From positions 64,001 through 114,497 of the IMG/VR virus record IMGVR_UViG_3300019124_000003: a DNA stretch of 50,497 nt; one strand, given 5' to 3'. The DNA is from a virus. The number at the start of each line of letters is the position of its first letter. The stretch's first letter is position 1. Of this stretch, positions 198 through 49,247 are shown in pieces. The notes beneath the pieces are model-generated. The model saw only the letters and a list, made by a program, of their open reading frames with translations, was not told the DNA's origin and did not search any database. The position numbers and the translations under genes were made by a program.

Positions 198-215
198 TAA
201 GTCAGTTCTGACTGT
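198..215. promoter_or_regulatory. Operator-like palindrome, copy 1
   Basis: TAAGTCA-GTTC-TGACTGT, 16 nt upstream of the CobT-like gene. The right half extends into a tandem 11-bp repeat, TGACTGTAAAC (209-219) and TGACTGTAAAG (220-230), so extra half-sites are present here. Confidence 0.7.
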
Positions 216-230
216 AAACTGACTGTAAAG

Positions 231-440
231 TTAAAAGTCGCGGACAGCAAACGGGAGAAGAACGGGATTTCCGAGAGCGGGAATCACGATGTGGATCAGA
301 CCATGATCAGCATGACGCCCTGTATAGATCGTCGTAGCGGCGTCGGGATTGCTTACGGTCTTTTCGGTCAGTTCTTCAGCCATATCAATCGCATCCTCAT
401 GAGTCAGGCTGATGATCTTTACACTCACGGTTTCAGGCAT
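231..440 (-). CDS. Small hypothetical protein (69 aa)
   Basis: The product begins MPETVSVKIISLTHEDAIDM and has no family I recognise. A longer reading from a TTG at 470 is possible, but it would begin inside a palindromic operator. The ATG at 440 has AAAAGG about 9 nt upstream and is preferred. The first half contains a predicted amphipathic helix (EDAIDMAEELTEK). The gene lies between two operator copies (198-215 and 468-485) and is probably transcribed alone or with the CobT-like gene. Confidence 0.55.
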   Translation of the reverse strand: MPETVSVKIISLTHEDAIDMAEELTEKTVSNPDAATTIYTGRHADHGLIHIVIPALGNPVLLPFAVRDF

Positions 441-467
441 GGAGGGATACCTTTTCGTTGTTTGGAA

Positions 468-485
468 CAAGTCAGTAATGACTGA
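468..485. promoter_or_regulatory. Operator-like palindrome, copy 2
   Basis: CAAGTCA-GTAA-TGACTGA, upstream of the leftward 69-aa gene. It has one mismatch per half-site relative to TAAGTCA-N4-TGACTTA. Confidence 0.7.
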
Positions 486-588
486 CGTTTCATGACACTT
501 TTTGGGCGTCCAAACAAGAGGGGACGCTCCGAGTTCCTCCCCGCGTGGCCCGGCCCTGAAGCGGCACCGGGCTATCGCTTCGAGGAGC

Positions 589-1002
589 TCACGCCGCCTT
601 GAAGGCCGACGCGAGCTTCTGCTCCATATCTGGAGTCAGTTCCGGATCGCTGTTGTTGGTCAGCTCACGGATTTTTCCAACGATCTCCGCCTCGTTCTTG
701 GTGACGACCGTGCCGAACACCGCGGAGATGGCTTCGTGCTGGTCGGGCCAATACTGTTCCATAGCCAGGCGGAAGAGGTGAGCGGGGTCTACATCGATGG
801 CCTTCGCCAGCGCCGGCACCTTGTCGAGGGGCACCTTCATTTCGCCGCGCTTGAACATCGATATGACGTTGGGCTTGTCATAGCCGATCTCAGCCGCGAT
901 CTCACGCTGAGACTTCTTTCCGGATAAAGCGTCGATGCGCTTCGCCAGATATGTGGCAATCCGGTTATTTGCGTAAGGCATTCCCGGCTTAGTCGTGCTC
1001 AT
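589..1002 (-). CDS. XRE-family (Cro/C1-type) HTH regulator
   Basis: This 137-aa protein has a helix-turn-helix around residues 30-55: SQREIAAEIGYDKPNVISMF, followed by KRGEMKVPLDKVPALAKAIDVDP. That is the standard XRE pattern, with conserved Q32/E34 in helix 2 and a final helix ending in the typical A-x-x-I-x-V-x-P. The C-terminal 60 residues may mediate oligomerisation. GGGAGACG precedes ATG 1002. It is the only Cro/C1-type regulator in the window and sits next to the replication control region, so it is the leading visible candidate for the factor that reads the phage-wide palindromes. That link is inference. A perfect dyad (1070-1085) and a degenerate operator copy (1202-1219) lie upstream of it. 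Confidence 0.8.
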   Translation of the reverse strand: MSTTKPGMPYANNRIATYLAKRIDALSGKKSQREIAAEIGYDKPNVISMFKRGEMKVPLDKVPALAKAIDVDPAHLFRLAMEQYWPDQHEAISAVFGTVVTKNEAEIVGKIRELTNNSDPELTPDMEQKLASAFKAA

Positions 1003-1069
1003 TAGTCGTCTCCCACAGTAGTCCTGGGATTGTCCCCCAACGTAGTCCCGTCTCTATTTCTGTATCCTC

Positions 1070-1085
1070 GTAAGCTGTTGCTTAC
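1070..1085. promoter_or_regulatory. Perfect dyad upstream of the XRE regulator
   Basis: GTAAGC-TGTT-GCTTAC has the same arm-N4-arm architecture as the phage-wide operator but different arms. It may be an autoregulatory site of the XRE protein. Confidence 0.45.
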
Positions 1086-1201
1086 ACGTATCTTATAGCG
1101 TCCCGTGCTACCGGCGACGCGATACTGAGAACGGGACGTTGAGATCCCTTTAAAAACTGGCGCAAAATAGAGAGGGCTTCACATGCGATAGGCCGCCGTG
1201 T

Positions 1202-1219
1202 TAAGTCACTACGAACTTA
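1202..1219. promoter_or_regulatory. Degenerate operator-like palindrome, copy 3
   Basis: TAAGTCA-CTAC-GAACTTA has a perfect left half and two mismatches in the right half. It lies in the regulator/repC control region. Confidence 0.4.
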
Positions 1220-1656: not shown

Positions 1657-2808
1657 ATGACGGCCCTGAATACGGGAGGGCGCCGGCTGATTCCGGCTGC
1701 CATCGAGGCCCGCTCCTATACGGTGGATGCGGAGCGCGAAGTCTCGCGCAAGGAGATGTCCGCGGCCGCGCGGGATGCAGAGAAGGCATTGCGACTGACG
1801 ACCGGGCCCAGGCTGATCCTGCGGGAGCTCGTCGGCTGCTGGGGCGAGGAGGCGATCCAGGGGCGCCTGATGGTGTGGCCCTCGAACCAGTATCTCATGG
1901 ACCGCACAGGCCTGTCCGAGCGGGCCGTGCGCTATGGGATCCGGCGCCTGGTGGACCTGCGCCTGATCGCCACGAAGGACTCCGCGAACGGCAAGCGCTA
2001 CATGATCAAGGATCTGGCCGGCACGCCGATCGACGCCTTCGGTTTCGACCTGTCGCCCCTCTACGCCAGGCGCGGCGAGTGGGTGCAGATGCTCGCCGCG
2101 ACCAAAGCCCAGAGAGACGCACAGAAGCACACCTTCGACGAGATCACCGTCTGTCGCCGGGCCGTTGAGGAAGCGCTTCTCGCGCTCTCCCAGAGCTTCC
2201 CTGAGATCGACCGCAGCGACATCGAGCAGCGCTATTCCCTCGCCCTGCAGAACACGCCGCGCCGCAGCTATACGGGCGATCTCTCGCAGATCCTTGGCGC
2301 CTGGAGAGAACTGAGGATGATCGCAGAGAAAACCTTCTATGAGGCGGGCTGTGGCGGCAATTCGTGCCGCCACTATGAATCCAACAACGGATCTTCTAGC
2401 GAAACTTGTAACAAGGGCTTTCCGGGGAAAGCTGAGCCGGTTTCGCATAACGAACAGCCGGAGGAGCACCTATCACTGAAATTGATCCTCGAGGCCTGCC
2501 CTACCCTCACCGACTTCGGGAAACCAATCCTCGACTGGGCGGATCTCGTCGCCGCGGCGCGCTACTTAAGGGCGAGTATGCAGGCCCATGAGAGCGCCTG
2601 GCGCGAGGCCGTGGATGAACTCGGCGCGCTCAAGGCGGCCGCGGTCGTGGCGATCTGCTTGCAGTTCTACGAGGACGACGTTGCCTCGGGCAAAAACCGC
2701 ATCCGGAATCCGGGCGGCTACTTCCGGGCCATCGTGCGCAAGGTCCGCGACGGCAAGTTCAACCTGGAGACGGAGTTCCTCGCTCTCAGGCGCCGGCACA
2801 TGACATAA
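1657..2808 (+). CDS. repC: Plasmid replication initiator RepC
   Basis: RepC initiates replication of repABC plasmids and binds an origin inside its own gene. The 383-aa product is slightly short for the family (about 400-440). The N-terminal DNA-binding region shows typical RepC motifs: WPSNQYLMDRTGLSERAVRY with IRRLVDLRLI, then KDSANGKRY, and AFGFDLSPLYAR. The C-terminal domain has the other signature, ACPTL...ILDWADLVAAA and NPGGYFRAIVRK. ATG 1657 is chosen over GTG 1651 because AGGAGGTG lies just before it. A Ser/Asn-rich, less GC-rich linker (residues about 225-270) separates the two domains. The gene is convergent with the leftward replication operon, and no repA or repB is seen. Its presence among phage genes implies a plasmid prophage state. 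Confidence 0.88.
   Translation: MTALNTGGRRLIPAAIEARSYTVDAEREVSRKEMSAAARDAEKALRLTTGPRLILRELVGCWGEEAIQGRLMVWPSNQYLMDRTGLSERAVRYGIRRLVDLRLIATKDSANGKRYMIKDLAGTPIDAFGFDLSPLYARRGEWVQMLAATKAQRDAQKHTFDEITVCRRAVEEALLALSQSFPEIDRSDIEQRYSLALQNTPRRSYTGDLSQILGAWRELRMIAEKTFYEAGCGGNSCRHYESNNGSSSETCNKGFPGKAEPVSHNEQPEEHLSLKLILEACPTLTDFGKPILDWADLVAAARYLRASMQAHESAWREAVDELGALKAAAVVAICLQFYEDDVASGKNRIRNPGGYFRAIVRKVRDGKFNLETEFLALRRRHMT
2340..2470. other. Candidate replication origin (oriV) inside repC
   Basis: Family knowledge places oriV in the central AT-richer part of repC. Here that segment encodes a low-complexity linker and contains a perfect dyad: GTGGCGGC (2351-2358), 7 nt, GCCGCCAC (2366-2373). The location is inferred. 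Confidence 0.4.
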
Positions 2809-2834
2809 AAAGGGGCGCCCGAAAGGACGCCCCA
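2806..2834 (-). terminator. Terminator of the leftward replication operon
   Basis: GGGGCG (2812-2817) pairs with CGCCCC (2828-2833), the stem continuing past one mismatch to a GAAA tetraloop. On the minus strand it is followed by TTTTTAT (2811-2805). It separates the long leftward operon from convergent repC. Confidence 0.75.
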
Positions 2835-2903
2835 CGCACACAACTAGAGAGGAAAACACGACTTTAACCCAAGTCGTCAGGGATTCTGAAACATTGCTTC
2901 GTA

Positions 2904-2921
2904 TAAGTCAATGCTGACTTT
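2904..2921. promoter_or_regulatory. Operator-like palindrome, copy 4
   Basis: TAAGTCA-ATGC-TGACTTT overlaps the stop codon of the last gene of the leftward operon, just before the terminator. No leftward gene follows, so this copy does not obviously serve a downstream gene. Confidence 0.7.
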
Positions 2922-3126
2922 GTGCCGCATTCTCCTTTTGTTCCTGCGCAAGGCCGATCCTGGCCTCGATCAGCTCCTCGACGCCGGCAAGGATGAGCGC
3001 CTTTGCGTCCTCGCGGCCGTAGGTGCGAGGCCCGTAGCGATCCATGTCGTCGAACCCCCGCTTGATCTTATAGCGCGCGTGACGCGCCTTGCGCTCAAAC
3101 GGATTCTCTTTTTGTTCCTCGCTCAT
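2908..3126 (-). CDS. Small charged hypothetical protein (72 aa)
   Basis: The product is MSEEQKENPFERKARHARYK..., highly charged and probably helical, and I recognise no family. The start at 3126 has CGGAGGATTC directly upstream and overlaps the stop of the preceding 41-aa gene (ATGA). Longer in-frame readings lack a ribosome site and would overlap that gene in another frame. It is the last gene of the leftward replication operon. Confidence 0.65.
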   Translation of the reverse strand: MSEEQKENPFERKARHARYKIKRGFDDMDRYGPRTYGREDAKALILAGVEELIEARIGLAQEQKENAAQSQH

Positions 3127-6361: not shown

Positions 6362-7525
6362 TCAGTCAGCGGCTACGCAGTCAGAACTGACTGGAACTTT
6401 CGCGCGCTTGGAAGCCGCCTCGGCGGCCGCGTAGGGGTTCTGGATGCGCCAGGTCACGTCGAGGGTCGGCGTGTAGGCCTTCGCCTCCCAGAACGCCCGG
6501 CGCACGACATCAGGAGGAACCTCGTTCGGATCCTTGTCGTAGGGCAGAACCGCGATCCGGACCTTCAGCCCGATCCCGCGCAAGAGTTTTGCCGCGTCGA
6601 GGGCCGCAATCAGGGCTTTGGGCTCGCCGTCCCACATGATCGTGACCTCTTCCAGCCCGTCGGCCTTGAGCTGAAGGAAGCGTCCGAGCTGGTCGTCCCC
6701 GTCGAGCGAGCCGTATGACAAATGCTTGCCGAAGGATCCGACCGGCACCACGTCGCGAAGGGCAACCTCCTCGTCGAGGGCCTTCTTGATGGCGATCACG
6801 TCGAAGGCGCCCTCCCCCATCGCCACGCGCTTCGCGCGCACCGCGTTCTGCCCATTGAGCAGGTAGCGCCCGGTTCCCGGCAGGCCCTTCGGGAAGAGGT
6901 ATTTCTGCTCGGACTCGCCGGTGACATCGCGCCCCTGAAACGTTCTGAGGGATCCGTCGAGGTCGAAGACCGGGATGATCACGCGCCCGTCGAACTTCTG
7001 CCCGCCCGGCGAGCCGTCGTCCTTCGTGAAGCGCCACCATCCTTCGGCACAGAAGCGCAGATGGAAGTATTTGGCGAGCGCCGCATCGACGCCCCGCTTC
7101 TCCAGGTAGATGAGGTTCTGACCCTCGGGCGTCGGCAGCGGAAAGGACAGGGGCAGCTTGACCTCCCCGAACTCGACGGCCGCGGTCGTGGTGCGCTTGG
7201 GACGCCAGCCCTGATCGGACAGCGCCTCGCGCACATGCTTGAAGGTCTCGCGCCAGGCGGCCTTGGAGTTCTCACGCTTGTCGCCGTGAAGATAGGCGTG
7301 GATGAACCCGAGCTTCGAGAAGGTCTCGCCGCACTGGAAGCAGTTGCCCGCGCCGGTCTCGGCGTTGAGATAGACGCGCCATTTCGAGCCGCCGCACTGA
7401 GGGCAGTCCTTGGCGTTGATCTGCCAGCCGTTGACGCCGCGGGAGGTCTTGTAGGCCAGGCTCTCGCGCTCGAACCAGGATTCGAGGTCGAGCTCCTCGG
7501 AGAGCTCCTTCGCGGAAGCGCTCAT
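6362..7525 (-). CDS. DnaG-like DNA primase
   Basis: It synthesises RNA primers for DNA replication. The 387-aa product has an N-terminal zinc finger (C41, C44, C62, C65; CPQCGG and CFQCGE), a central catalytic region, and a TOPRIM domain with the conserved glutamate in MGEGAFDV (E238) and aspartate in TIMWDGEP (D299). It is shorter than bacterial DnaG because no helicase-binding domain is evident. ATG 7525 overlaps the preceding stop (ATGA). The last codons contain a perfect palindrome (6378-6393) of the phage-wide operator family. Confidence 0.88.
   Translation of the reverse strand: MSASAKELSEELDLESWFERESLAYKTSRGVNGWQINAKDCPQCGGSKWRVYLNAETGAGNCFQCGETFSKLGFIHAYLHGDKRENSKAAWRETFKHVREALSDQGWRPKRTTTAAVEFGEVKLPLSFPLPTPEGQNLIYLEKRGVDAALAKYFHLRFCAEGWWRFTKDDGSPGGQKFDGRVIIPVFDLDGSLRTFQGRDVTGESEQKYLFPKGLPGTGRYLLNGQNAVRAKRVAMGEGAFDVIAIKKALDEEVALRDVVPVGSFGKHLSYGSLDGDDQLGRFLQLKADGLEEVTIMWDGEPKALIAALDAAKLLRGIGLKVRIAVLPYDKDPNEVPPDVVRRAFWEAKAYTPTLDVTWRIQNPYAAAEAASKRAKVPVSSDCVAAD
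6377..6394. promoter_or_regulatory. Operator-like palindrome, copy 5 (inside primase gene)
   Basis: GCAGTCA-GAAC-TGACTGG with perfect inner arms CAGTCA/TGACTG. It lies within the 3' coding end of the primase gene, upstream of the WGR gene. Confidence 0.6.
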
Positions 7526-9294: not shown

Positions 9295-9582
9295 TTACTC
9301 CGCGATCTTGTATCCACGCATGTCCGACTTAAAATAAGTCATTGCTGACTGATCGGAACAGGCAAGCTTCAACGCATACTGGTCGGCGGCGACCAACTCC
9401 CCGGTTTCAACGTCGCCATTCCGAAACTGAATCCGGATCTTCTTACCTACGAGAGCGTCGAGGTCGTGCTGGTGCGACCACTTCTTCGGCCGAACCTTGA
9501 TCGGCCGACGCTCACCCTTGCGCTCGACGACCGGATAGGGCTTGCGATGAGGATCGTGCTTGGCAAAATTCGAAACAGGCAT
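9295..9582 (-). CDS. Sm/Hfq-like small protein (95 aa)
   Basis: The basic N-terminal 40 residues (KPYPVVERKGERRPIKVRPK) are probably disordered. Residues 42-95 fit the five-stranded Sm fold: LVGKKIRIQFRNGDVETGEL then VAADQYALKLA, and the closing AMTYFKSDMRGYKIA, analogous to the YKHAIS strand of Hfq. Sm proteins bind RNA as rings. Similarity is by pattern only, and an SH3-like barrel is an alternative. ATG 9582 is used (GAGAG upstream). An in-frame ATG at 9621 is possible. The 3' end contains operator copy 6. Confidence 0.5.
   Translation of the reverse strand: MPVSNFAKHDPHRKPYPVVERKGERRPIKVRPKKWSHQHDLDALVGKKIRIQFRNGDVETGELVAADQYALKLACSDQSAMTYFKSDMRGYKIAE
9335..9352. promoter_or_regulatory. 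Operator-like palindrome, copy 6 (inside Sm-like gene)
   Basis: TAAGTCA-TTGC-TGACTGA lies in the coding 3' end of the Sm-like gene, upstream of the helicase. On the minus strand its last bases form the -10-like TATTTT. Confidence 0.65.
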
Positions 9583-11217: not shown

Positions 11218-11235
11218 TAAGTCAAAAATGACTTA
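11218..11235. promoter_or_regulatory. Operator palindrome, copy 7 (perfect arms)
   Basis: TAAGTCA-AAAA-TGACTTA upstream of the PhoH gene. Both 7-bp arms are perfect. It is one of six fully matching copies. Confidence 0.85.
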
Positions 11236-12391: not shown

Positions 12392-12409
12392 TAAGTCATT
12401 TCTGACTTG
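12392..12409. promoter_or_regulatory. Operator palindrome, copy 8
   Basis: TAAGTCA-TTTC-TGACTTG, 15 nt upstream of the phosphoesterase start. Confidence 0.75.
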
Positions 12410-13029: not shown

Positions 13030-13784
13030 GCTGTCGCTCTCTCGTTCGCGAAAGGGAGCGAAGCGCTCCCAGCGTCTTCGGGACGCGATTTAAAAGCGTT
13101 CCGGGCAGCGATCAGGGCAGCGAGATAGAGCATCGCAAGGTTTGCGATCTCTTTTGCCTTGTCGGTGCCGTTGATGATCTTGCGGCCGACGATGAAATCG
13201 GCGAGTTCGTCGCCGTCCACCACGTCGTCGATGGCGCGGTCGAGCGTGTAGCCGGTGAACCAGCCCTCCTCCATGCCGAGAAAGAGGATGACGGGCGCGA
13301 TGTCGGGCCGGTTGGCGTCGTCGGGGTTCTTGACGAGATCGACATCGAAGCCGAGCTCCTGGAGCTTCTTCGTGGCGCGCTCGTAGTTGTCCTTGCCGGT
13401 GAGCTGAACCAGGGTGCGGCCGCGATAGAGCCAGCCGTCGTCCGGGCCGGTATTGCCCATGCGTCCGCCATAGACCTTGTTGGCGAGCGCCCGCGGGTTC
13501 CTGACATAGGGCTTGGCGGAAGCGATCGTCGGGAAGCGGCTCGGCCAGACCGCACGGATGCGCTCGGCCGTGGTGTAGGTGAGGTTCTCCGTGACCGGCT
13601 GCATCGCAGCGCCGGTCTCCCAGTGCGCCGTGGCGAAGCAGTAGGCGAGCTGCGGCAGAGAGGTCCTGTCCGCGACCCTGGCGTGCCCGTCGAGGATCGC
13701 GTTGATGCCGTCAACCTGGCTCTGGGTGAAGCGACCGAACGGGGCCTTGCGCAGGTGGGCAAACAGGGTGTCTCTGTCAAACAT
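13017..13784 (-). CDS. Endolysin, GH19 (chitinase/lysozyme-like) family
   Basis: This enzyme cleaves peptidoglycan glycan strands at lysis. The 255-aa sequence has the GH19 pattern: AHWETGAAMQPVTE with candidate catalytic glutamates E56 and E66, then YGGRMGNTGPDDGWLYRGRT followed by LVQLTGKDNYERA. No signal peptide is evident, so export through the holin is expected. The start codon abuts operator copy 9, whose spacer provides the Shine-Dalgarno AAGGA. Confidence 0.88.
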   Translation of the reverse strand: MFDRDTLFAHLRKAPFGRFTQSQVDGINAILDGHARVADRTSLPQLAYCFATAHWETGAAMQPVTENLTYTTAERIRAVWPSRFPTIASAKPYVRNPRALANKVYGGRMGNTGPDDGWLYRGRTLVQLTGKDNYERATKKLQELGFDVDLVKNPDDANRPDIAPVILFLGMEEGWFTGYTLDRAIDDVVDGDELADFIVGRKIINGTDKAKEIANLAMLYLAALIAARNAFKSRPEDAGSASLPFANERATACST

Positions 13785-13801
13785 AAGTCAGTCCTTACTT
13801 A
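13784..13801. promoter_or_regulatory. Operator-like palindrome, copy 9 (doubles as ribosome site)
   Basis: TAAGTCA-GTCC-TTACTTA. On the minus strand it reads TAAGTAA-GGAC-TGACTTA, and its last A begins the endolysin ATG. The departure from consensus creates AAGGA 7 nt before that ATG. Confidence 0.75.
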
Positions 13802-14162: not shown

Positions 14163-14180
14163 GCAGTCAGGATTGACTTA
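14163..14180. promoter_or_regulatory. Operator-like palindrome, copy 10
   Basis: GCAGTCA-GGAT-TGACTTA upstream of the lysis cassette, directly downstream of the -10-like TAAAAT of a predicted leftward promoter. Confidence 0.75.
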
Positions 14181-20110: not shown

Positions 20111-20139
20111 ATAATAAGTCATTACTGACTTACGTTCAA
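20111..20139 (-). promoter_or_regulatory. Tail fibre promoter with embedded operator
   Basis: On the minus strand TTGAAC (20134-20139), 17 bp, TATTAT (20111-20116). Operator copy 11 lies between the two hexamers, so a bound repressor would exclude RNA polymerase. Confidence 0.75.
20115..20132. promoter_or_regulatory. Operator palindrome, copy 11 (perfect arms)
   Basis: TAAGTCA-TTAC-TGACTTA fills the spacer of the tail fibre promoter. Confidence 0.88.
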
Positions 20140-21106: not shown

Positions 21107-24100
21107 CGCGCGAACTCCAAGACTGTCAGGACGATCTGCCCGCCCTGCATCATGCCGGACGGACGGAGCTGGAAGTTGTGGTTGCCCTCGTAGGTCGCCG
21201 TGCGCTCGACCATCGTCATCGTGCCCTGCTGCGAGTAGAAGTTGGTGACGACTCCCTCGCGGGCGTTGTATTCCGTGCGGGCCACGTAGGCGCGGCCGTA
21301 GAACGTGCCGACGGCCGCGCTGTTGTGCCGGATTTCGAAGCTGGCATCGGTGCGATCGAAGGACGTGGACGTGGAGCCGGAATAGGACGCCAGGATCACC
21401 AGTCGCGCGCTCTGACGGCAGTAGACGTTGAAGTTGATCAGCGGGTTCGGGTTGCCGGCCGCCCACTGTGCGGACGCGGTGTTGCCGGCCGTGACCGAGC
21501 CGTTGGCAAGCCGCAGCGTATCGATCTCGGCAAAGCCGATCTTGGCGCGCTTGATCACCGCATCGCCGATCTGGGCCGAGTCGGTGATCAGGGTCGTGGC
21601 CGAAAGCTCGCGCGCCGTGATCGTGTAGGCCTGGATCTTGGTCGCGTGCAGCGAGTTGGCGTGGATCTTGTCGCCGTGCAGGTCCGCGATGTAGGCGTTC
21701 GAGATTGCCGCACCGGCAATGTAGGTGCCGATGTTGTGGGCGGAAATGTAGTCGATCGCCGACATGGCGCCGAAGCCGGTCGCCTGCGAGCGGTCCACGG
21801 TGTTCTGGCGCGCGAGCTGACCCAGGTTGACGACCTTGTTGCCGTCGATGTTGCCGGAGATCTTGGACGCGGAGAGCGCCTGGATCGCGCTGTCCGGAAT
21901 CACCGACGAGCCGAAGCCGCCCGAGCCGAAGATCAGGTTGCCGTTGGCGTCGAAGAGCTGCAAGCCGTAATCGGTCGAGCCGCTGCCGAGCCGGCCGATC
22001 TTGACCCGCAGGCGCCCGGCCGACAGCTCGCCCGGAAGCACGCCGATCGCCTGGGCGTCGTAGATGCGGAGCGTCTGGTCGGGCGCGTTCAGGATGAAGC
22101 GGTCGCCGCCGATGCGCACCTTGTCCGCGGCCGAGAGCGTTCCACCCGCGAGCTTGTCGAAGGTGATCTGGCCCGCAAGATGGGTGTTTTCGATGATGCC
22201 GCCGCGGATCTGCGCCTTGTCGGTGATGAACTCGCCGGCTGCAACCAGGTCCGCGGTGAGCGAACGGGTCCGGATCTGCGAGCCGTCGATCATCGTGCGG
22301 CCGTAGGTGACGTTCAGATCGATGCCGCCGCGATAGGTCGCGAGGATGATGCTGTCCGGGCCGGTCGGCGCCGTCGTCGGGGTCGAGAGCGCGGTCGAGC
22401 CGCGGGTCCAGACGAAGTAGAGCGTCGTGCCGGCAGACCACGCCTTCGACGAGCCGGAGATCGCGTCCCGCTTCATCTTCCCGTCGTCGCCGATGTATTC
22501 GATCGTGCCGGAAGTCCACGTCACCAGGTTGGTGTCGCGGTTGTAGGAGAACTGGATCCCCGAGACGGTGATGCCGCGCAGGCCGACCGCGAGCTGATTG
22601 GCCGTGATCGAGTTGGTCGAGATCGCGCCGCCGCGGATCTTGGTCGCGTCGGTGCCGTCGCGCCAGCTCGCCAGGGTGGTGTCGCCGGCGATGAGGATCT
22701 GGCCCGGGTCGATCTTCGTGGTGCGCTGATTGATCACCGCGGCCGGGTCGTCGGCCCGCTCGTGGATCGTGCCGATCGAGACGCCCGTGGTGCCGACGGT
22801 GATCGTCGGCGGCAGCGCGGTGTGAATGTCGATATGGTCGCCCGTGATCGAACGCGCGCGGATATGCTCGGCGATCACCGCATTGGCCGCGATGTCGCCC
22901 TCCTGCACCTGACCCGGAACGACCACGGTGCCGGCCACCGCGTTGAAATCGCTGTAGAGGCCAGACGTATTGCGAGCGCGCACCCAGTAGAAGCGCGCTT
23001 CCCCGGTCGCGACCCCAGAGTGCGTAAAAGCGATTCCCTTCGACGTTCCGATCAGCTTATGAGCGTCGTCGGGGTTGCTCGGGTTCGGGCGAATGTCGGC
23101 GACGTGCGACCAGATCTCGATCACGTCGAGGTCCGGATCGGCCGGGTTGTTCCACTTCAGGAACACGCTCTTGAGGGACGCCTGTGCAGTCAGTCCTGAC
23201 GGCCGATTGGGTGCCCGCGTATTCACCGGGGTCGTGATCGAGACGACATCCGTGTAGCCCGAGGAGACCGAGTTGCGCGACACCGACTTGACGCGCACCG
23301 AATAGGTCTCGTTGAGCACCAGGCCCGTCCACTCGTAGGAGACGGTCTTGGCGTCGGCCGACTTCGGCCCGCCCGTGGCGAAGCCGATCCAGTCGCCGCC
23401 GGCGCGCATGATCTCGACCTCGAAGCGGCCGAAGTTCTCCGACGGGCTCTTGTCCCAGGTCGCGATGATCCGGGCGCTCAGGCCGCCGTCGGGCTGGCGA
23501 TCGAGCCTGGTCTCCAGCTTCAGCCCGGTCGGGATCGCCGGCGGGGTGGAGTCCACGACGATGCCCGAGGTGGTGATGGTGATCTCGGGGCTGATGTTGA
23601 GGCCGGTCTTGTCGAAGGCGTCGTAGGCCCCGAAGCGCACGTAATAGGTCGTGAACTCCTTGAGCGGCACCGACACGAAGTTGTTCGGGCCGTCATAGAC
23701 CGGCACGGTGCCGTAGGGATCGTAGCCGGACTTCTCCTGCGCCCAGACCATCGCGCCCGCGAAGTCGAGGTCGTCCGGGAAGTCGTAGTCGATGTAGAGG
23801 GCGCCGGAATTGTTGGTCCACAGGCGCGGGATGATCAGGTCCGGAACCGGGTTCTCGGGCACGATCTTGGCCGGCTTGGACTCGCGCCCGAGGTTGTCAC
23901 GCACCGTGACCTCGAAGCGGAACTTGCGCTGCGGGCCCTTGCCGATCGCGGCGAAGTCCGAGACATTGTTCTCGTAGGTGTAGGTGTAATCGGGAACGAA
24001 CACCGTCTCCACGCGCACGAGCTGGCCCGTCTCCACGTCGAAGACGCGGATCACGTTGTCGCGGAAGAACGGGTTGACGGCGCCCTGCCCGGCCGAGCCG

Positions 24101-28545: not shown

Positions 28546-28574
28546 ATTATAAGTCAATACTGACTTATGATTCC
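28546..28574 (-). promoter_or_regulatory. Predicted promoter of the L-K-I-J genes
   Basis: On the minus strand a perfect -10 TATAAT (28546-28551), with operator copy 12 filling the 17-bp spacer. The -35 (GGAATC, 28569-28574) is poor, so an activator may be required. Confidence 0.5.
28550..28567. promoter_or_regulatory. Operator palindrome, copy 12 (perfect arms)
   Basis: TAAGTCA-ATAC-TGACTTA lies between genes M and L. Its minus-strand TAA is the stop codon of gene M, and its other end runs into a perfect -10 TATAAT (28546-28551). Confidence 0.88.
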
Positions 28575-28921: not shown

Positions 28922-28939
28922 TCAGTCAGTCCTTACTGA
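28922..28939. promoter_or_regulatory. Operator-like palindrome, copy 13 (doubles as ribosome site)
   Basis: TCAGTCA-GTCC-TTACTGA directly before the gene M start. On the minus strand it contains AAGGA 8 nt from the ATG, the same variant seen at copy 9. Confidence 0.65.
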
Positions 28940-33503: not shown

Positions 33504-33521
33504 TAAGTCAGTAGTGACTTA
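33504..33521. promoter_or_regulatory. Operator palindrome, copy 14 (perfect arms)
   Basis: TAAGTCA-GTAG-TGACTTA upstream of the tape measure gene, immediately downstream of its predicted -10. Confidence 0.88.
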
Positions 33522-34270: not shown

Positions 34271-34288
34271 ACAGTCAGTAATGACTTA
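34271..34288. promoter_or_regulatory. Operator-like palindrome, copy 15
   Basis: ACAGTCA-GTAA-TGACTTA between the tail tube stop and the chaperone gene, directly adjacent to a terminator-like hairpin. Confidence 0.75.
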
Positions 34289-34870: not shown

Positions 34871-34888
34871 TCAGTCAGTTCTGACTTA
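34871..34888. promoter_or_regulatory. Operator palindrome, copy 16 (tail tube, downstream)
   Basis: TCAGTCA-GTTC-TGACTTA begins at the predicted transcription start of the tail tube promoter. Confidence 0.82.
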
Positions 34889-34894: not shown

Positions 34895-34923
34895 ATTGTA
34901 TCCGCAACGAGATAACCAGTCAA
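34895..34923 (-). promoter_or_regulatory. Tail tube promoter
   Basis: On the minus strand TTGACT (34918-34923), 17 bp, TACAAT (34895-34900). The -35 lies within operator copy 17, and copy 16 overlaps the start site. Confidence 0.8.
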
Positions 34924-34933
34924 AACTGACTTA
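34916..34933. promoter_or_regulatory. Operator palindrome, copy 17 (tail tube, upstream)
   Basis: CCAGTCA-AAAC-TGACTTA. It contains the tail tube -35, and its minus-strand TAA is the stop codon of the upstream tail terminator gene. Confidence 0.82.
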
Positions 34934-38437: not shown

Positions 38438-38466
38438 ATGATAAGTAAGAATTGACTTATCGTCCA
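38438..38466 (-). promoter_or_regulatory. Predicted promoter downstream of the capsid gene
   Basis: On the minus strand TGGACG (38461-38466), 17 bp, TATCAT (38438-38443), with operator copy 18 in the spacer. Confidence 0.5.
38442..38459. promoter_or_regulatory. Operator-like palindrome, copy 18
   Basis: TAAGTAA-GAAT-TGACTTA between the capsid stop and the hairpin. Symmetry extends by one base pair on each side beyond the core. Confidence 0.72.
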
Positions 38467-39416: not shown

Positions 39417-39434
39417 TCAGTCAGTTCTGACTTA
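39417..39434. promoter_or_regulatory. Operator palindrome, copy 19 (capsid, downstream)
   Basis: TCAGTCA-GTTC-TGACTTA at the expected start of the capsid transcript. Confidence 0.82.
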
Positions 39435-39478: not shown

Positions 39479-39496
39479 TAAGTCAGTGTTGACTTA
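39479..39496. promoter_or_regulatory. Operator palindrome, copy 20 (capsid, upstream; perfect arms)
   Basis: TAAGTCA-GTGT-TGACTTA just upstream of the capsid -35, centred 62 bp from copy 19. Confidence 0.85.
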
Positions 39497-40483: not shown

Positions 40484-40501
40484 GCAGTCAGGAATGACTT
40501 A
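40484..40501. promoter_or_regulatory. Operator-like palindrome, copy 21
   Basis: GCAGTCA-GGAA-TGACTTA upstream of the scaffold gene. Its minus-strand TAA is the portal stop codon. Confidence 0.78.
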
Positions 40502-42125: not shown

Positions 42126-42154
42126 ATAATAAGTCATTACTGACTTATGCACAA
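42126..42154 (-). promoter_or_regulatory. Portal promoter with embedded operator
   Basis: On the minus strand TTGTGC (42149-42154), 17 bp, TATTAT (42126-42131). The arrangement is identical to the tail fibre promoter. Confidence 0.7.
42130..42147. promoter_or_regulatory. Operator palindrome, copy 22 (perfect arms)
   Basis: TAAGTCA-TTAC-TGACTTA occupies the spacer of the portal promoter. Confidence 0.88.
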
Positions 42155-42156: not shown

Positions 42157-43437
42157 CTACAGGGAACGGCCCAGGATCGTGATCTCGCGCACCGGAAACT
42201 GGAGATCGACGCAGTAGCCCAGCGCGTCGGCCGGGTGTTCGAGGCCCTGGCTCTTGTCCACCTCGCGGGTGCCGGGCTTGTAGATGGTCTGTTCCAGCGC
42301 CGCGATGGTGTGCTTACAGGTGGAATTCACCCGCATCCGGATCTGCCCGTCGCCGGTCTTGAACATGCGATTCACGGCGTTGACGCGATCGGCCACCTTC
42401 GGGTGCTTGCGCCGATACTTGATGCGGGTGAAGCCGGCCTCGCGCAGGATGTCGAGGTCGGACTCGCCGCGGCCCTTGGTCGAGCGGTTGGCGCCGGCCG
42501 GGTCCGGGAAGAAGGTGATCTGGCCCATGTGCTTGAAGTAGCGCCGGCCCAGCTCGTCCGCGGTCTCCTGGGTGTTGGAGCCGTAGAGGATGCACTCGTC
42601 CACGATCCAGACCTCGCCGTTGGGCTGCGGCTGCATGATCACGGACGACATCGGATCGATGTTGAAGTCCTGACCGATCCAGATCGGGAGCTTCGGGTTG
42701 AACGGATAGTCGCCCACATGCACGTTGCGGTCGAAGGCGTAGTAGACGCGGCCCGACATGGTCTCGAAGCTCGCCTCGAACTCCTGCCGGAACGACTTCT
42801 CGTCCATATCGCCGCGGGCGGCCGCGATCTCCTCCTCCGGGATGAACGGCGAGGTGATGGTCGGGAACTGCCAGCTCTTCCACGGATTGAGGCGCCGACG
42901 GCCCTTCTTGTCGATGTAGGTCTCGCCGCGCTGACCCAGCATGTAGAGGTCGTAGAGCCAGTTGAAGGACTTGGGCGTGCCGATGATCAGCGCGTCGCCC
43001 AGCGTCGAAGCCAGCGTCGGGCGCAGAACCTTGGTCCAGGTCTCTTCCTTGATGTCCTGGGCCTCGTCGATGATCAGATGATGCAGGCCGACGCCGCGCA
43101 GCGTATCGGGCTTGTCGGCACCCTTAAGCTCGATCCTGGTGCCGTTGTGCAGCCGGATCGTCATGCGGGTTTCGTTGATCGAGGCGATCCAGCCGCGCGG
43201 GATCGCATCCTTCAGCTCGTCCCAAAGGATCGACCGGGCCATCCCGTAGGTGGGCGCCACATACCAGATCAACTGCTTCGGCTTGCCGGCCTTGCGGATG
43301 ATGGAGATCTTGGAGAGCTGCGTCTTGCCCCAGCGACGCCCGGCGACCACGACCTTGAAGCGGTGCCGATCGGTGAAGACCTCCTTCTGGCCGGCGTGCA
43401 TCTTGAGGACGTGCGCCGGGGTCGGAGAGAAGCTCAT
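42157..43437 (-). CDS. terL: Terminase large subunit
   Basis: The 426-aa packaging motor and nuclease has Walker A-like VAGRRWGKTQ (31-40), an adenine-binding APTYGMARSILWDELK, Walker B LIIDEAQD (121-128), coupling motif GTPKS, and nuclease-domain acidic residues in IGQDFNIDPMS, WIVDECIL and HPADALGY. It overlaps the small subunit gene by 4 nt. Confidence 0.92.
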   Translation of the reverse strand: MSFSPTPAHVLKMHAGQKEVFTDRHRFKVVVAGRRWGKTQLSKISIIRKAGKPKQLIWYVAPTYGMARSILWDELKDAIPRGWIASINETRMTIRLHNGTRIELKGADKPDTLRGVGLHHLIIDEAQDIKEETWTKVLRPTLASTLGDALIIGTPKSFNWLYDLYMLGQRGETYIDKKGRRRLNPWKSWQFPTITSPFIPEEEIAAARGDMDEKSFRQEFEASFETMSGRVYYAFDRNVHVGDYPFNPKLPIWIGQDFNIDPMSSVIMQPQPNGEVWIVDECILYGSNTQETADELGRRYFKHMGQITFFPDPAGANRSTKGRGESDLDILREAGFTRIKYRRKHPKVADRVNAVNRMFKTGDGQIRMRVNSTCKHTIAALEQTIYKPGTREVDKSQGLEHPADALGYCVDLQFPVREITILGRSL

Positions 43438-44104: not shown

Positions 44105-44122
44105 TAAGTCAGTTCTTACTTA
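44105..44122. promoter_or_regulatory. Operator-like palindrome, copy 23
   Basis: TAAGTCA-GTTC-TTACTTA upstream of the terminase genes. On the minus strand it leads into TATAGA, a possible -10. Confidence 0.75.
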
Positions 44123-44139
44123 CAAGTCCGGACACTCCA

Positions 44140-44201
44140 AAGCCGTCTCCTGATATATAATATATATCTTAGTAGTATATATTACTATACAGAGACGGCT
44201 T
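44140..44201. other. Long inverted repeat with AT-only core near terS
   Basis: Perfect 10-bp arms AAGCCGTCTC (44140-44149) and GAGACGGCTT (44192-44201) enclose 42 nt of nearly pure A/T. The core contains the perfect inner palindrome GATATATA-A-TATATATC (44152-44168) and a TAGTA/TACTA pair. It could extrude as a cruciform, terminate the upstream operon or mark the packaging (cos/pac) site. Function is unproven. Confidence 0.6.
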
Positions 44202-45409: not shown

Positions 45410-45680
45410 CGCTGTTCCCCTTCTCCGCAAGCTCGGGCTCCTCGATCGTCAGGCCGACCCAGACGAGATCCATCGGTTGCGGGCGCGAGCGGATGATGAA
45501 GTTCAGGGACTCCTCGTATTCGGCATTCCACAGCACGGTGAGATCCTCGATCGCCTGCACGACGGTCTCCTCGTCGTTGAACAGGGCCGCCTGGTCGAAA
45601 GGCACGCGCGCGAGCGGCTCCGGACCCATCCAGAGCCCGGACACCAGGTCCTTGATGACGTAGATCGTGCGGGAGGCCAT
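45387..45680 (-). CDS. Hypothetical protein (97 aa)
   Basis: MASRTIYVIKDLVSGLWMGP... is a compact alpha/beta protein of unknown family, ending in an acidic tail. ATG 45680 overlaps the HAD gene stop, and its 3' end overlaps the GNAT gene by 23 nt, so expression is coupled to both. Confidence 0.6.
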   Translation of the reverse strand: MASRTIYVIKDLVSGLWMGPEPLARVPFDQAALFNDEETVVQAIEDLTVLWNAEYEESLNFIIRSRPQPMDLVWVGLTIEEPELAEKGNSDVAENAH

Positions 45681-46150
45681 CAGTATTCGCCTTCGCACAC
45701 CTGCAAGCAGCGCAGCCCGGCCTCACGCCACATCTGCGTGACCGACTTGCGGTCCTCGACGGCGAACAGCGGCTCGAAGCCCATGCCCCTGATCGCGGTC
45801 AGGATCTCGCGCTTGACCTCGTAATCCTTCCGGTAGTCGCCGTCGGGGCGCATGATCAGGTAGTGGTAGTGAATGTCGTGCTTCTTCAACCAGGCCTCGG
45901 TCTGGGCCCGCTGCGACTCCCGGCGCCCCGTGACCATGAAGACCGCGTAGCGTTCGGCCATCTGGTTGTTGAGAGCCCGGATCTCCTCATGGACGCTGTC
46001 GCCGTCGGCCGCGGCGAAGAACGTCTCCCAGCTCGCGTCGGGCGCCCGGCCGGTCTCATGCGTGCCCTTCGGCAGCAGATGCAGCCGGTGCGCGGCGTTC
46101 GCCAGCGTCCCGTCGATGTCCATGATGATGCAGGGATTCTTGGGCTTCAT
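45680..46150 (-). CDS. HAD-family phosphatase (polynucleotide 3'-phosphatase-like)
   Basis: HAD motifs: IIMDIDGTLAN (nucleophile D-x-D-G-T at residues 11-15), VFMVTGRRESQR (motif II with T), and a C-terminal FAVEDRKSVTQMWREAGLRC (motif IV-like). The insertion HRLHLLPKGTHE and VTGR are typical of the phosphatase domain of T4-type polynucleotide kinase. No kinase domain is present. ATG 46150 is used because GGAGGCGCT precedes it. An upstream ATG (46168) lies inside operator copy 24. Confidence 0.8.
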   Translation of the reverse strand: MKPKNPCIIMDIDGTLANAAHRLHLLPKGTHETGRAPDASWETFFAAADGDSVHEEIRALNNQMAERYAVFMVTGRRESQRAQTEAWLKKHDIHYHYLIMRPDGDYRKDYEVKREILTAIRGMGFEPLFAVEDRKSVTQMWREAGLRCLQVCEGEY

Positions 46151-46160
46151 AGCGCCTCCG

Positions 46161-46178
46161 TAAGTCATAACTGACTGA
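46161..46178. promoter_or_regulatory. Operator-like palindrome, copy 24
   Basis: TAAGTCA-TAAC-TGACTGA directly upstream of the HAD gene's ribosome site. Confidence 0.75.
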
Positions 46179-46182
46179 TAAA

Positions 46183-46317
46183 TCAGGATAAAAACGTGCG
46201 AACGATCAGGCCGACCAGGCCGACAAAGGCCATGACCGTGGTGGCTCCTCCGATGACGATGAGCCAGAACATCACGCGCAAGAACGTCTCGACGCCCTTG
46301 GTCTTGTGTCGTGTCAT
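46183..46317 (-). CDS. Tiny membrane protein (44 aa)
   Basis: The product MTRHKTKGVETFLRVMFWLI continues with about 20 more hydrophobic residues (VIGGATTVMAFVGLVGLIV) and ends RTFLS. It has one long or two short membrane spans with a basic N-terminus. ATG 46317 overlaps the ABC ATPase stop (ATGA), so it is translationally coupled to the ATPase. It could tether that soluble ATPase to the membrane, which is inference. Confidence 0.6.
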   Translation of the reverse strand: MTRHKTKGVETFLRVMFWLIVIGGATTVMAFVGLVGLIVRTFLS

Positions 46318-47075
46318 CCGATCAGCTCCATATCCAGGGCCCGCTTCCACTCCTCCATCTTCTCGTCGGAGACGAAATCGTTGTTGTGGAGCGCGGCAAA
46401 CATCTCCTCGGCGATTGCCTTATAGTCGCCGACGGGGCGGCCGTGCGGTCCTTCCACATCGACGCGCTCCCGGAAGCGCTTGGTGACGGTCAGATCCGGA
46501 CCCAGCTCGTCCTTGAGATCCGTGTGGGTGGTCGCGACCATCAGGGTCTTGCCCTGGGCCCGTGCGACCTTCTGCATGTTGAAGGCGATCACCTTCGCGG
46601 TCACGCGGTCGAGCACGGCGCCGAACTCGTCGGCGATCCAGACATCGGCACCGCTTTCCATCACCTTCGCGAGCTTGAGACGGTAGCGCTGCCCGTCGGA
46701 GAGCTCCGAAGGCTTGCGGATATAGATCCAGGCGTCCGAGATCCCGGCCTTGGCGAGCAGATCCGCGGCTTCCGTCGTGGTCTTGCCGACCAGCTCGATC
46801 ACCGGCTTTTCCTCAAGCTGGATCTCGTTGAGGTCGGCGACGGCGAGCCCTGCAGAACGCATCTGCGCCGCGAGGTCCTTCAGGAGCAGCGACTTTCCGG
46901 AGCCGGACTGACCCGTGATGTAGACCACGTCGCCCTGGCGCACCTCGATTTCGAGGTTGTCGTAGATGACGAACTCCTTGTTGGAGAGGCCCAGGCCGAA
47001 GCCCTCGGCGATCTCCAGCACCCGCGGCGTGCGCTCGACGGAGGACGTGAACTTGCGGTCGATGGTGTAGATCAT
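46314..47075 (-). CDS. ABC-type ATPase (COG2401-like, soluble)
   Basis: The 253-aa product is a complete ABC nucleotide-binding domain: Walker A GQSGSGKS (55-62), signature LSDGQRYRLKLA (125-136), Walker B VWIADE (145-150), and switch histidine H184 (VATTHTD). No permease gene or membrane domain accompanies it except a 44-aa membrane peptide. With the nearby GNAT gene it reconstitutes a split version of the GNAT-ABC fusions of COG2401. An N-terminal 35-residue extension precedes the ABC core. Confidence 0.8.
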   Translation of the reverse strand: MIYTIDRKFTSSVERTPRVLEIAEGFGLGLSNKEFVIYDNLEIEVRQGDVVYITGQSGSGKSLLLKDLAAQMRSAGLAVADLNEIQLEEKPVIELVGKTTTEAADLLAKAGISDAWIYIRKPSELSDGQRYRLKLAKVMESGADVWIADEFGAVLDRVTAKVIAFNMQKVARAQGKTLMVATTHTDLKDELGPDLTVTKRFRERVDVEGPHGRPVGDYKAIAEEMFAALHNNDFVSDEKMEEWKRALDMELIG

Positions 47076-47296
47076 GACGAAACCTGATCGAGGCTGGGGA
47101 CGCGCCGGATCTCGCCGATCCGCAGCGCGTTGCGAAGGTATCCGTGGGCGCTGGCGCCCTTGGTGTAGAATTCCCAGGCCGATCCGTTCCGATCGACCCA
47201 GTAGAAGTGCAGGCGGCCGCGCCGGTTTCGCATCACCCTGATGCGCAAGCCGCCGCAGACGAGCGCCACGATGAGACAGTTGCCGGGGAATCTCAC
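47072..47296 (-). CDS. Small basic hypothetical protein (74 aa)
   Basis: Starts at GTG 47296, overlapping the preceding stop (GTGA). The N-terminus is hydrophobic (FPGNCLIVALVCGGLRIRVM), and the rest is basic and beta-rich (RGRLHFYWVDRNGSAWEFYT). Its stop overlaps the ABC ATPase start. No family recognised. Confidence 0.55.
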   Translation of the reverse strand: MRFPGNCLIVALVCGGLRIRVMRNRRGRLHFYWVDRNGSAWEFYTKGASAHGYLRNALRIGEIRRVPSLDQVSS

Positions 47297-47622
47297 TCCT
47301 CGATCTCCTCGTCTCCGGGCAGACCGAACTCGGCGACGTGAAGGAGCTGCTGCTCGATCACTCTCAGGGCGCCGATGTATTTCAGGGCTTCCGTCTCCGG
47401 CGTGCCCTCGGGCGGCAGCATGATCTCGAAGTCGAAGCCGGCCCGGTTGCGGTTCCAGGCGATGAAGCCGACGCCGGCCACCTCGCCCGTGACCACCTTC
47501 CCGAGGACCTGCTCCAGCATCTCCGCGGAATCGTGGTCGATCGGAGCGCCGTTCTCGCCCGGCTCGTAGGGCTCCCGGGTGCGGATATGGATGACGTTCA
47601 CCTTCCCCTGTCCGTCGCTCAT
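47293..47622 (-). CDS. Acidic hypothetical protein (109 aa)
   Basis: MSDGQGKVNVIHIRTREPYE...; the middle (VVTGEVAGVGFIAWNRNRAG) is beta-rich and both ends are acidic. Family unknown. First gene of a coupled set leading to the ABC ATPase, with operator copy 25 at its start. Confidence 0.6.
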   Translation of the reverse strand: MSDGQGKVNVIHIRTREPYEPGENGAPIDHDSAEMLEQVLGKVVTGEVAGVGFIAWNRNRAGFDFEIMLPPEGTPETEALKYIGALRVIEQQLLHVAEFGLPGDEEIEE

Positions 47623-47639
47623 AAGTCAATCCTGACTGT
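47622..47639. promoter_or_regulatory. Operator-like palindrome, copy 25
   Basis: TAAGTCA-ATCC-TGACTGT between the ParB-like gene and the 109-aa gene. Its first base on the plus strand abuts the 109-aa start codon. Confidence 0.75.
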
Positions 47640-48301
47640 TAAGCGTAGCCAAGCGAGTTGATGTGGGCGATCAGGGCGGCCGGCCCGGTCTTCCCGGTCT
47701 CGGCCTCGACCTTCATCATGAAGGCCCGGATGATCCGGCTCTGCTCGACCGTGACCTTCTTGAAGCCCAGTGCGTCGCCGATCGGCGAGGCGCTCTCGTC
47801 CACCTCAGCCTTCTTCTTCTCGTTCTCGGCCTTCTGCTCCTCGACGGCCTGCACGATGTCGGCCGTGAACGCGCTCTCGTCGAAGGCGCCGAGATCCGCG
47901 GTGAGGAATTCGAGCTCCTTGTCGTCGAAGCCCATCACGTCCATGTCGAAGCCGAGGTCGTTGAGCTTGACCAGCTCCGCCTGCAAGAGGTCGGTGTCGT
48001 AGGCCGTCGAGGCGACCCGGTTATCGGCCAAGCGCAGGGCGTCGCATTCCTCCGGGGTCAGGTCGCGCCGGCAGATCACCGGCACCTTCGTCAGGCCCAG
48101 CTTGATCGCGGCCAGGCGCCGGCCGTGACCGGCGATGATCACGCCGTCCTTGTCCACGATGATCGGGTTGAAGCCGAACTTCTGGATCGACTTCGCCAGC
48201 TTCTCCACCTGGTCGTCCGGGTGCAGCTTGGCGTTCTTCTCGTAGGGCTTGAGGTCCTCGATCGGCCACAGCTCGACCGAGAGGCTAGTCTCCGCTGTCA
48301 T
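47639..48301 (-). CDS. ParB-like nuclease/CTPase-fold protein 1
   Basis: The 220-aa product has a ParB/sulfiredoxin-fold core in residues 10-120: LKPYEKNAKLHPDDQVEKLA, IIVDKDGVIIAGHGRRLAA (GHGRR 58-62), then PEECDALRLADNRVA. This family includes DNA-binding, nuclease and modification-associated proteins in phages. A charged helical C-terminus follows. ATG 48301 is preferred (GGAG upstream). Confidence 0.8.
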   Translation of the reverse strand: MTAETSLSVELWPIEDLKPYEKNAKLHPDDQVEKLAKSIQKFGFNPIIVDKDGVIIAGHGRRLAAIKLGLTKVPVICRRDLTPEECDALRLADNRVASTAYDTDLLQAELVKLNDLGFDMDVMGFDDKELEFLTADLGAFDESAFTADIVQAVEEQKAENEKKKAEVDESASPIGDALGFKKVTVEQSRIIRAFMMKVEAETGKTGPAALIAHINSLGYA

Positions 48302-48476
48302 TGTCCATCTCCGCATACATTCGCATCAGCTCGTCGGCGTCGGGCTCCCCGTCGGGCTCCTTCTCCTCGAAGAACTCGCCGGCGCCGCAGCGCAGGCAGT
48401 TCGCGGAAGGACGCGAGGGCCGGTAGAACTTGCACTCCCGGCACTCCGGAAACCGGGGCTCGAACGGCTTGTGCAT
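48285..48476 (-). CDS. Small zinc-ribbon protein (63 aa)
   Basis: Four cysteines in C12-x2-C15-x11-C27-x2-C30 (PECRECKFYRPSRPS, NCLRCGAGEFFEE) give a classic zinc ribbon, followed by an acidic tail. It overlaps both ParB-like genes and may bridge them. Confidence 0.65.
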   Translation of the reverse strand: MHKPFEPRFPECRECKFYRPSRPSANCLRCGAGEFFEEKEPDGEPDADELMRMYAEMDNDSGD

Positions 48477-49171
48477 CAGGCGTCGGCCTCCTCCCCGTCC
48501 TCGTCGGGCTGGGCGCCCGAGAGCAGCAGGTGAACCAGGGCGTCGCCGGCGTTCGTCATTTCGTCGGAGGCCGTGTAGCCGAACTTCTTCTGGGTCTTGG
48601 CGATCAGGGCCGTCAGGCGCTCCGCGTCGGCGAGCGGCACCTTGAACTTCATGATCGTGTGGGTTTTCGGGGCCTTGAGCGTCGGCGGCTCAGGGTCTTT
48701 TTCAGGTGTTTCGAAGTTTTCGTCTAAATCCAGATCGTCAAGCGCTATATTCACGCTTGAGAAAATCGACTGAATATCTGTCTCTGTATAGGGAAGGAAC
48801 TGTTGCAGGTCGTCCGCATTGCCCATTTCTTCGAGCAACCGGGCCAATTCGATCGTATCATCGACGCCGTAGCGGGCATTGTCCGCCAGGCCGATCTCCT
48901 TGGCGCGCTGGTCGTCCACGACGCCCAGGTTGAAGATCGGCACCTCCTCCAGGCCCAGGGTCTTGGCCGCCTGCCAGCGATGCTCGCCGCCCAGGATCTC
49001 GTAGACCGTCGCACCGAACCCGTCGTCGATCTCGCGCACGATGATGGGCTTGAAGAAGCCGAAACGGCGGATCGCCTCGATCAGCTTCTCCTCGTTCTCC
49101 GGCCCGACGGAATTGGTGTTCCACGGATTCGGGCGGAGATGGTCGGGATGAACAGAAAGAGCTTTCGGCAC
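48476..49171 (-). CDS. ParB-like protein 2
   Basis: The 231-aa product starts at GTG 49171 (AGGAA upstream). The ParB-like core is at residues 5-110: VHPDHLRPNPWNTNSVGPEN, KPIIVREIDDGFGATVYEIL then GGEHRWQAAKTLG (GGEHRW 61-66), and IGLADNARYGVDD. The C-terminal half is acidic with a predicted helical domain. A second ParB homologue so close to the first, each differing in the GxxRR/H motif, suggests distinct roles. Confidence 0.8.
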   Translation of the reverse strand: MPKALSVHPDHLRPNPWNTNSVGPENEEKLIEAIRRFGFFKPIIVREIDDGFGATVYEILGGEHRWQAAKTLGLEEVPIFNLGVVDDQRAKEIGLADNARYGVDDTIELARLLEEMGNADDLQQFLPYTETDIQSIFSSVNIALDDLDLDENFETPEKDPEPPTLKAPKTHTIMKFKVPLADAERLTALIAKTQKKFGYTASDEMTNAGDALVHLLLSGAQPDEDGEEADA

Positions 49172-49186
49172 CAGGGATTCCTATGA

Positions 49187-49204
49187 TAAGTAATAACTGA
49201 CTTA
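49187..49204. promoter_or_regulatory. Operator palindrome, copy 26 (divergent promoter region)
   Basis: TAAGTAA-TAAC-TGACTTA. Symmetry extends outward to 10-bp arms TATGATAAGT (49183-49192) and ACTTATCATA (49201-49210). TATCAT is present on both strands as a -10 candidate, so the site can serve both the leftward ParB-like gene and the rightward helicase. Confidence 0.82.
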
Positions 49205-49229
49205 TCATATATCCGCAGGAAGGCAAGTG

Positions 49230-49247
49230 GCAATCAGTAATGACTGA
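49230..49247. promoter_or_regulatory. Operator-like palindrome, copy 27 (overlaps a start codon)
   Basis: GCAATCA-GTAA-TGACTGA. Its centre contains the ATG (49240) of the rightward helicase gene. It is centred 43 bp from copy 26. Confidence 0.65.

Follow-up and report, generated by a model that had tools for sequence, protein, structure and literature searches.

A palindrome dispersed over the promoters of a phage-plasmid and its relatives: probable operators of a phage-encoded XRE repressor

The CI repressors of lambda, 434 and P22 are dimeric helix-turn-helix proteins that recognize palindromic operators, of which the lambdoid phages have only a small number, grouped at the immunity region. 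The C1 protein of the phage-plasmid P1 is not a small XRE protein. As master repressor of P1 it acts at 22 operators dispersed over the genome, each a 17-bp asymmetric sequence (ATTGCTCTAATAAATTT), and it also represses its own gene (PMC8546580). In cluster A mycobacteriophages such as L5 and TipsytheTRex, more than 20 repressor sites lie genome-wide in promoters and short intergenic gaps; these stoperators are 13-bp, asymmetric and orientation-dependent, and are bound by a two-domain monomer (PMC9283540). In the large Bacillus prophage SPbeta, a repeated promoter-region element, SPBRE, had been recognized in silico well ahead of its protein, the master repressor MrpR, which has a tyrosine-recombinase fold and recognizes a 15-bp motif at about 10 bound promoters (PMC10516654). 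Here we describe a palindrome, TAAGTCA-N4-TGACTTA, dispersed over the 114,497-bp IMG/VR virus record IMGVR_UViG_3300019124_000003, the final 50.5 kb of which (50,497 nt) is hereafter called the window, and we consider as its reader a 137-aa XRE protein encoded near the start of the window.

The logic of this network, in which many near-identical sites lie over phage promoters, is closest to that of P1 C1. It does not, however, belong to that system, as the symmetry of the sites, the repressor and the relation to promoters all differ: the sites are 18-bp palindromes present in 27–56 copies, and the late structural operons carry operators here. The original prediction had likened the sites to stoperators. 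The resemblance stands, but the sites overlap promoter cores, which brings them nearer to P1 C1 than to the elongation-blocking stoperators; they are also symmetric, unlike those of cluster A. The differences from SPbeta lie in the motif, the number of sites, the host and the protein, for which an all-helical model of the HTH_3 type was obtained here, and the difference from lambdoid CI lies in the dispersal of the operators over the lytic operons.

We consider it highly probable, from comparison of sequences, that the palindromes are operators of the phage-encoded XRE protein, acting as a lysogeny repressor that directly silences early and late promoters. In the window there are 26 matches to the palindrome at three or fewer mismatches, one of them a weak decoy at position 974, against 0.26 ± 0.48 expected from shuffled sequence. 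With a symmetric weight matrix built from the entire record, the sites at 6377 and 49230 and a weak one at 23186 were added, for a total of 28. The 27 copies originally predicted are thus borne out (27–28 in the window, about 0.3 expected), and the six copies with two perfect arms, at 11218, 20115, 28550, 33504, 39479 and 42130, were confirmed in place. A scan of the complete phage with the matrix, suggested with that prediction as a check, returned 49 sites and only one in Markov-shuffled sequence. The four central bases, which had been thought free, are not: the matrix favours GTAC in the middle of the site, with G at about 0.65 in position 8 and T at about 0.60 in position 9, and the half-site is accordingly ACTGACT(T/G)A. 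Other relatives have different preferred middle bases. No tRNA or known RNA features were found at the sites.

Gene starts of the phage were predicted with a purpose-written script, and 88% of the sites in the genome fall in the zone from 150 bp before to 20 bp after such a start, which makes up 21% of the genome; for nearly all sites a start codon follows 0–80 bp downstream. Copies had been expected at nearly every transcription-unit boundary. This is so in the window, where 18 of the 19 gene starts preceded by a gap of 50 bp or more have an operator, but not genome-wide, where the figure is 32 of 59 (54%) and the small-gene regions at about 3–13 kb and 20–27 kb of the record contain almost no sites. 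The expected absence of copies from the long tail genes holds apart from one weak match (23186..23203) within the gene at 21103–26394, which is probably due to chance.

The large terminase subunit (42157..43437, minus strand) is about 60–72% identical to those of SSU5-type, AB-type and RHEph10-type phage-plasmids, more specifically, 60% to those of SSU5, Cyrano and Klebsiella phage-plasmids, 64% to those of the approximately 110-kb Acinetobacter baumannii phage-plasmids, 67–70% to those of RHEph10-type Rhizobium phages and 72% to those of Methylobacterium phage-plasmids. The closest cellular relative found is a 109-kb contig in Faunimonas pinastri (84%). On the strength of these identities we assign the phage to the SSU5/pHCM2–AB–RHEph10 supergroup of phage-plasmids. 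A further relative, pLM21S1, has been described as a prophage that is plasmid-like and akin to RHEph10 (PMC4447125, PMC5537653). A homologous set of terminase, capsid, portal and replication genes is present in a genome that falls within the 100–120-kb range of the supergroup, as are genes for plasmid replication and partition. RepC (1657..2808, plus strand) matches RP-C (E 6e-42) and RP-C_C (E 5e-23), and its closest operator is 437 bp upstream; the open reading frame (ORF) at 2433–3071 of the record is probably ParA-like, as judged by its Walker-type sequence and the homology of the region to RHEph10 and Y2_11.

The comparison took in another 24 genomes, complete or nearly so, with G+C contents of 41–66%. 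In each genome we counted gapped palindromes in upstream regions, with no motif given in advance, and then refined them to a weight matrix. Each of the 22 genomes that encode the XRE protein (the present phage included) contains 27–56 dispersed sites, where 0–4 are expected under the null, and 72–95% of these are in the upstream zone. Most alphaproteobacterial members have TGACTTA as their consensus half-site, read outward; Acinetobacter and Cupriavidus have TGACTGA, Shinella, G010 and the enterobacterial elements have TTACTTA, and G015 and RHEph10/Y2_11 have TGATTTA or TGA(T/C)TGA. The operator is conserved while the capsid proteins fall to 44% identity and G+C content shifts from 41 to 66%. 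Contigs gathered by XRE similarity carry sites too; with XRE alignments a narrower alignment retrieved 20 loci, while a search for related loci with a single XRE protein or a wide alignment gave nothing. By contrast with the 22 genomes, weight-matrix and motif counts gave zero sites in the Pseudomonas phages nickie, hairong and Nican01 and in the Stenotrophomonas phages ANB28 and BUCTxx99; no temperate behaviour was observed in a Nickievirus isolate (PMC8537276). An apparent ANB28 motif from an iterative search was an artefact of low information located away from gene starts. Nor is the motif a property of the host chromosome, a point on which the original prediction could have failed: of 36 matches to the loose pattern ARTMANNNNTKAYT in the 4.2-Mb Faunimonas pinastri genome, 33 are on the 109-kb phage-plasmid contig (G006) and about three elsewhere, and five relatives without XRE are free of sites. 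CtrA was considered as a host protein that might bind the sites and was rejected; its TTAA-N7-TTAA differs from the phage motif, and the sites also occur in Acinetobacter and Cupriavidus elements.

The XRE gene (589..1002, minus strand) encodes a protein with a match to HTH_3 (E 2e-4, 21.6 bits, slightly below the Pfam cut-off of 23) and a PHROG match to transcriptional regulators. Its AlphaFold model (predicted local distance difference test score, pLDDT, 87) has an all-helical CI-type helix-turn-helix fold, and the closest solved structures include C.BclI, the lambda CI N-domain (1lmb) and P22 c2 (3jxb). Unlike LexA-cleavable CI repressors, it has no detectable C-terminal S24 autoproteolysis (peptidase) domain, HTH_3 being the sole domain found in the 137 aa. 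About fifteen protein families of the phage are common to all 22 site-bearing genomes, and XRE is the only one of these that is missing from nickie, ANB28 and SSU5; a profile search also found no XRE in hairong, Nican01 or BUCTxx99. The protein is therefore present in 22 of 22 site-bearing temperate relatives and missing from six, five of which have zero sites, a pattern that makes it the best candidate for the reader, as originally suggested. Every XRE gene in the 22 genomes has a site upstream, as found by weight matrix or, for Cyrano (GGTAAGCACTTACC), by inspection, which would be expected for autoregulation; in the present phage this is a weak operator (TAAGTCACTACGAACTTA, 1202..1219) 200 bp upstream of the gene. 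XRE relatives of 42–47% identity are encoded on ordinary Ruegeria and Cereibacter plasmids without sites, and the protein family is therefore wider than the phage group.

The sixth relative without XRE, SSU5, is the exception. The segment that contains the integrase and the repressor in Cyrano is missing from it (SSU5 region 37500–46500), yet it keeps 29 sites in the same kind of positions. The loss of the repressor with retention of the sites in D29 is a similar case among the mycobacteriophages. SSU5 has been described as virulent (PMC5427195), and with its operators kept and its integrase and XRE segment lost it resembles a natural repressor-deletion derivative of a phage-plasmid.

In Cyrano the XRE ortholog, CYRAN_45, is annotated as a putative repressor and is expressed 10-fold above the prophage background in the lysogen, and ciprofloxacin induces the phage 39-fold (PMC9928086). 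Of 14 Cyrano genes expressed in the lysogen, 12 have no operator, the exceptions being the repressor itself and CYRAN_117, whose site may belong to a divergent ParB promoter. As a separate observation, CYRAN_43, a hypothetical gene near the repressor (L213:4732-5286), is expressed 723-fold above the prophage background in the lysogen (PMC9928086).

The position of the sites relative to promoters bears on how they would act. Around 771 sites oriented by their downstream gene, -10-like hexamers exceed a background of about 5 per 5-bp bin, with 114 in the ten bases before the operator, 155 at positions 15–24 and 37 at positions 35–39, and these three registers place the operator over the start point, the spacer and the -35 element. 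Such variable registers within the promoter core fit steric repression and not an activator. Nevertheless, some sites have no recognizable -10 and a few overlap start codons, and a repressor bound in short intergenic gaps might stop elongating polymerase besides, or instead of, preventing initiation, a logic established in cluster A mycobacteriophages (PMC9283540). We regard this as unlikely, the sites being symmetric where stoperators are asymmetric and orientation-dependent (PMC9283540), and the -10 signal mostly clustering on the site.

Less likely still is that the sites serve mainly in activation of late or middle transcription, by the XRE protein or another phage factor, such that the lytic genes need them. 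Nearly all structural operons in the window are preceded by sites, and some sites overlap the -35 position, which would suit such a role; against it, the relation between site and -10-like hexamer takes at least three registers, as predicted for steric repression, relatives without XRE have homologous structural operons that are free of sites, and SSU5 is virulent without XRE. It is also very improbable that the sites are read by some other product of the phage, such as a ParB-like protein, a phage sigma factor, the ribbon-helix-helix-like protein encoded next to repC or the small ORF adjacent to XRE. All of these are phage-encoded, and the last two are found beside XRE in several relatives, but ParB-like genes are also present in phages without sites, a sigma factor would have an asymmetric site with a constant distance to the -10 element, the ribbon-helix-helix-like ORF was not found in the present genome, and only XRE has the right pattern of presence and absence. 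Finally, although perfect inverted repeats at transcription-unit boundaries might suggest an RNA terminator or hairpin, this is excluded because the arms vary independently (796 one-sided changes in 13 TGACT-class genomes, with 44 two-sided and complementary against 40.0 expected under independent variation) and there is no Rfam match; the failure of the arms to compensate was seen in the original prediction, and supports its preference for a dimeric DNA-binding protein.

Several results weigh against repression by the XRE protein or soften the evidence for it. The spacing of the half-sites varies in the enterobacterial elements, and the consensus is degenerate in RHEph10 and Y2_11. The -10-like peak at 15–19 is partly inflated, as the last TA of the operator is shared with the hexamer; the bin directly ahead of the operator likewise has one T in common with it, and the remaining peaks are unaffected. 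The expression data for Cyrano show a trend in the predicted direction that is not significant (p 0.08–0.22), the set of 14 genes being underpowered. Position 43 of the recognition helix (K or N) tracks the C/A base of the half-site by eye, yet such tracking by XRE residues is not above that of control phage-protein columns, and phylogeny alone could explain it. For the G/A base only XRE residues 47 and 54 exceed the controls (their values are equalled or exceeded by 0.4% and 0.05% of the control columns, uncorrected for about 22 tests), and an earlier, simple test of covariation between half-site and recognition helix gave p 0.07.

That the XRE protein binds the sites, that binding represses, and that immunity follows from the sites, we infer. 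Our current working hypothesis is that a dimer of the protein would bind two ACTGACT(T/G)A half-sites across or beside core promoters and would physically exclude RNA polymerase, about half of the transcription units of the phage carrying promoters of this kind. In the plasmid lysogen, early (replication) and late (capsid, tail and packaging) operons would be directly silenced, whereas repC, parA and the repressor gene, the latter autoregulated through its own operator, would remain active; a drop in repressor activity would open all operons together. A broader proposal, which is tentative and which we favour somewhat less than we doubt it, is that in phage-plasmids across the alpha-, beta- and gammaproteobacterial supergroup a single repressor acts directly and simultaneously on all the major lytic operons, early as well as late, and holds them through operators embedded in the promoter core and with no regulatory cascade.

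The operator network is real, conserved and apparently undescribed: in a literature search, outside which lay subscription papers and preprints, no operator network was described for SSU5-, AB- or RHEph10-type phage-plasmids. Phage-plasmids of the SSU5 and AB types, which can bear resistance genes, are often found in Klebsiella, Escherichia, Salmonella, Enterobacter and Acinetobacter (PMC9600943), and in the literature searched we found no explanation for the silencing, the mutual exclusion or the virulent relatives of these elements. A defined operator together with a proposed repressor makes such questions testable. Lifestyle (temperate, repressor-less or site-less) becomes predictable from sequence, and if the single-repressor proposal is true, immunity groups could be read from sequence alone. 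SSU5 provides a natural case of operators without a repressor, and the relatives as a whole a large natural set for studying the joint change of an operator and its reader.

The region around the XRE gene contains other small ORFs of interest. Between XRE and the CobT-like gene is a small ORF (231..470, minus strand) to which weakly similar, equally placed ORFs exist in RHEph10 (gp042) and possibly in Cyrano (CYRAN_46) and Klebsiella pJN2-26; from its position it is possibly an antirepressor or Cro-like partner. A ribbon-helix-helix-like ORF of 66–68 aa lies beside repC in several alphaproteobacterial members (RHEph10_gp040, L136:34587-34793; L219:2476-2676; L220:1618-1821), and in the present phage none was found among ORFs of at least 60 aa in the interval from XRE to repC, on the strand of the latter. 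The two operators at this end of the window, TAAGTCAGTTCTGACTGT (198..215) and CAAGTCAGTAATGACTGA (468..485), are located upstream of the CobT-like gene (start codon 182) and of the small ORF, respectively. Beyond repC, an operator is found at 2904..2921 (TAAGTCAATGCTGACTTT), and the weight-matrix site at 6377..6394 (GCAGTCAGAACTGACTGG) is located where one gene ends, 62 bp ahead of the next start.

The remaining operators of the window are, with few exceptions, immediately upstream of genes. Those at 9335..9352, 12392..12409 and 14163..14180 precede the genes at 7915–9291, 11256–12377 (by 15 bp) and 13805–14110, that at 13784..13801 overlaps the start of the gene at 13017–13784, and the perfect operator at 11218..11235 is upstream of a PhoH-like gene (10340–11170). 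Further perfect operators are found at 20115..20132, 30 bp upstream of the gene at 15625–20085, at 28550..28567, upstream of a tail gene (27805–28521), and at 33504..33521, 16 bp upstream of the large gene at 28944–33488, which occupies the tape-measure position on the RHEph10 map; the operator at 28922..28939 is at the start of the gene at 28565–28921. The gene at 33855–34223 has an operator at 34271..34288, and that at 34318–34845 has two in a shared promoter region (34871..34888 and 34916..34933). Further on, the operator at 38442..38459 is upstream of the gene at 37698–38387, the major-capsid-like gene (38469–39371) is preceded by one at 39417..39434 and a perfect second one at 39479..39496, the gene at 39512–40426 by one at 40484..40501, and the portal gene (40499–42097) by a perfect one at 42130..42147. 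The operator at 44105..44122 is upstream of both the gene at 43434–44096 and the terminase, those at 46161..46178 and 49187..49204 are upstream of the genes at 45680–46150 and 48476–49171, and that at 47622..47639 is at the start of the gene at 47293–47622. The last, at 49230..49247, lies between divergent genes, at the start of a UvsW-like helicase gene (49240–50497).

A second dispersed palindrome, AAACAA-N-TTGTTT, is present in 9–11 copies in the enterobacterial elements Cyrano, SSU5 and pJN2-26, mostly 12–70 bp upstream of genes and behind a recurring A/T-rich stretch. As it is kept in the repressor-less SSU5, it is probably not read by the XRE repressor, and it is probably either the site of another reader or part of a phage promoter.

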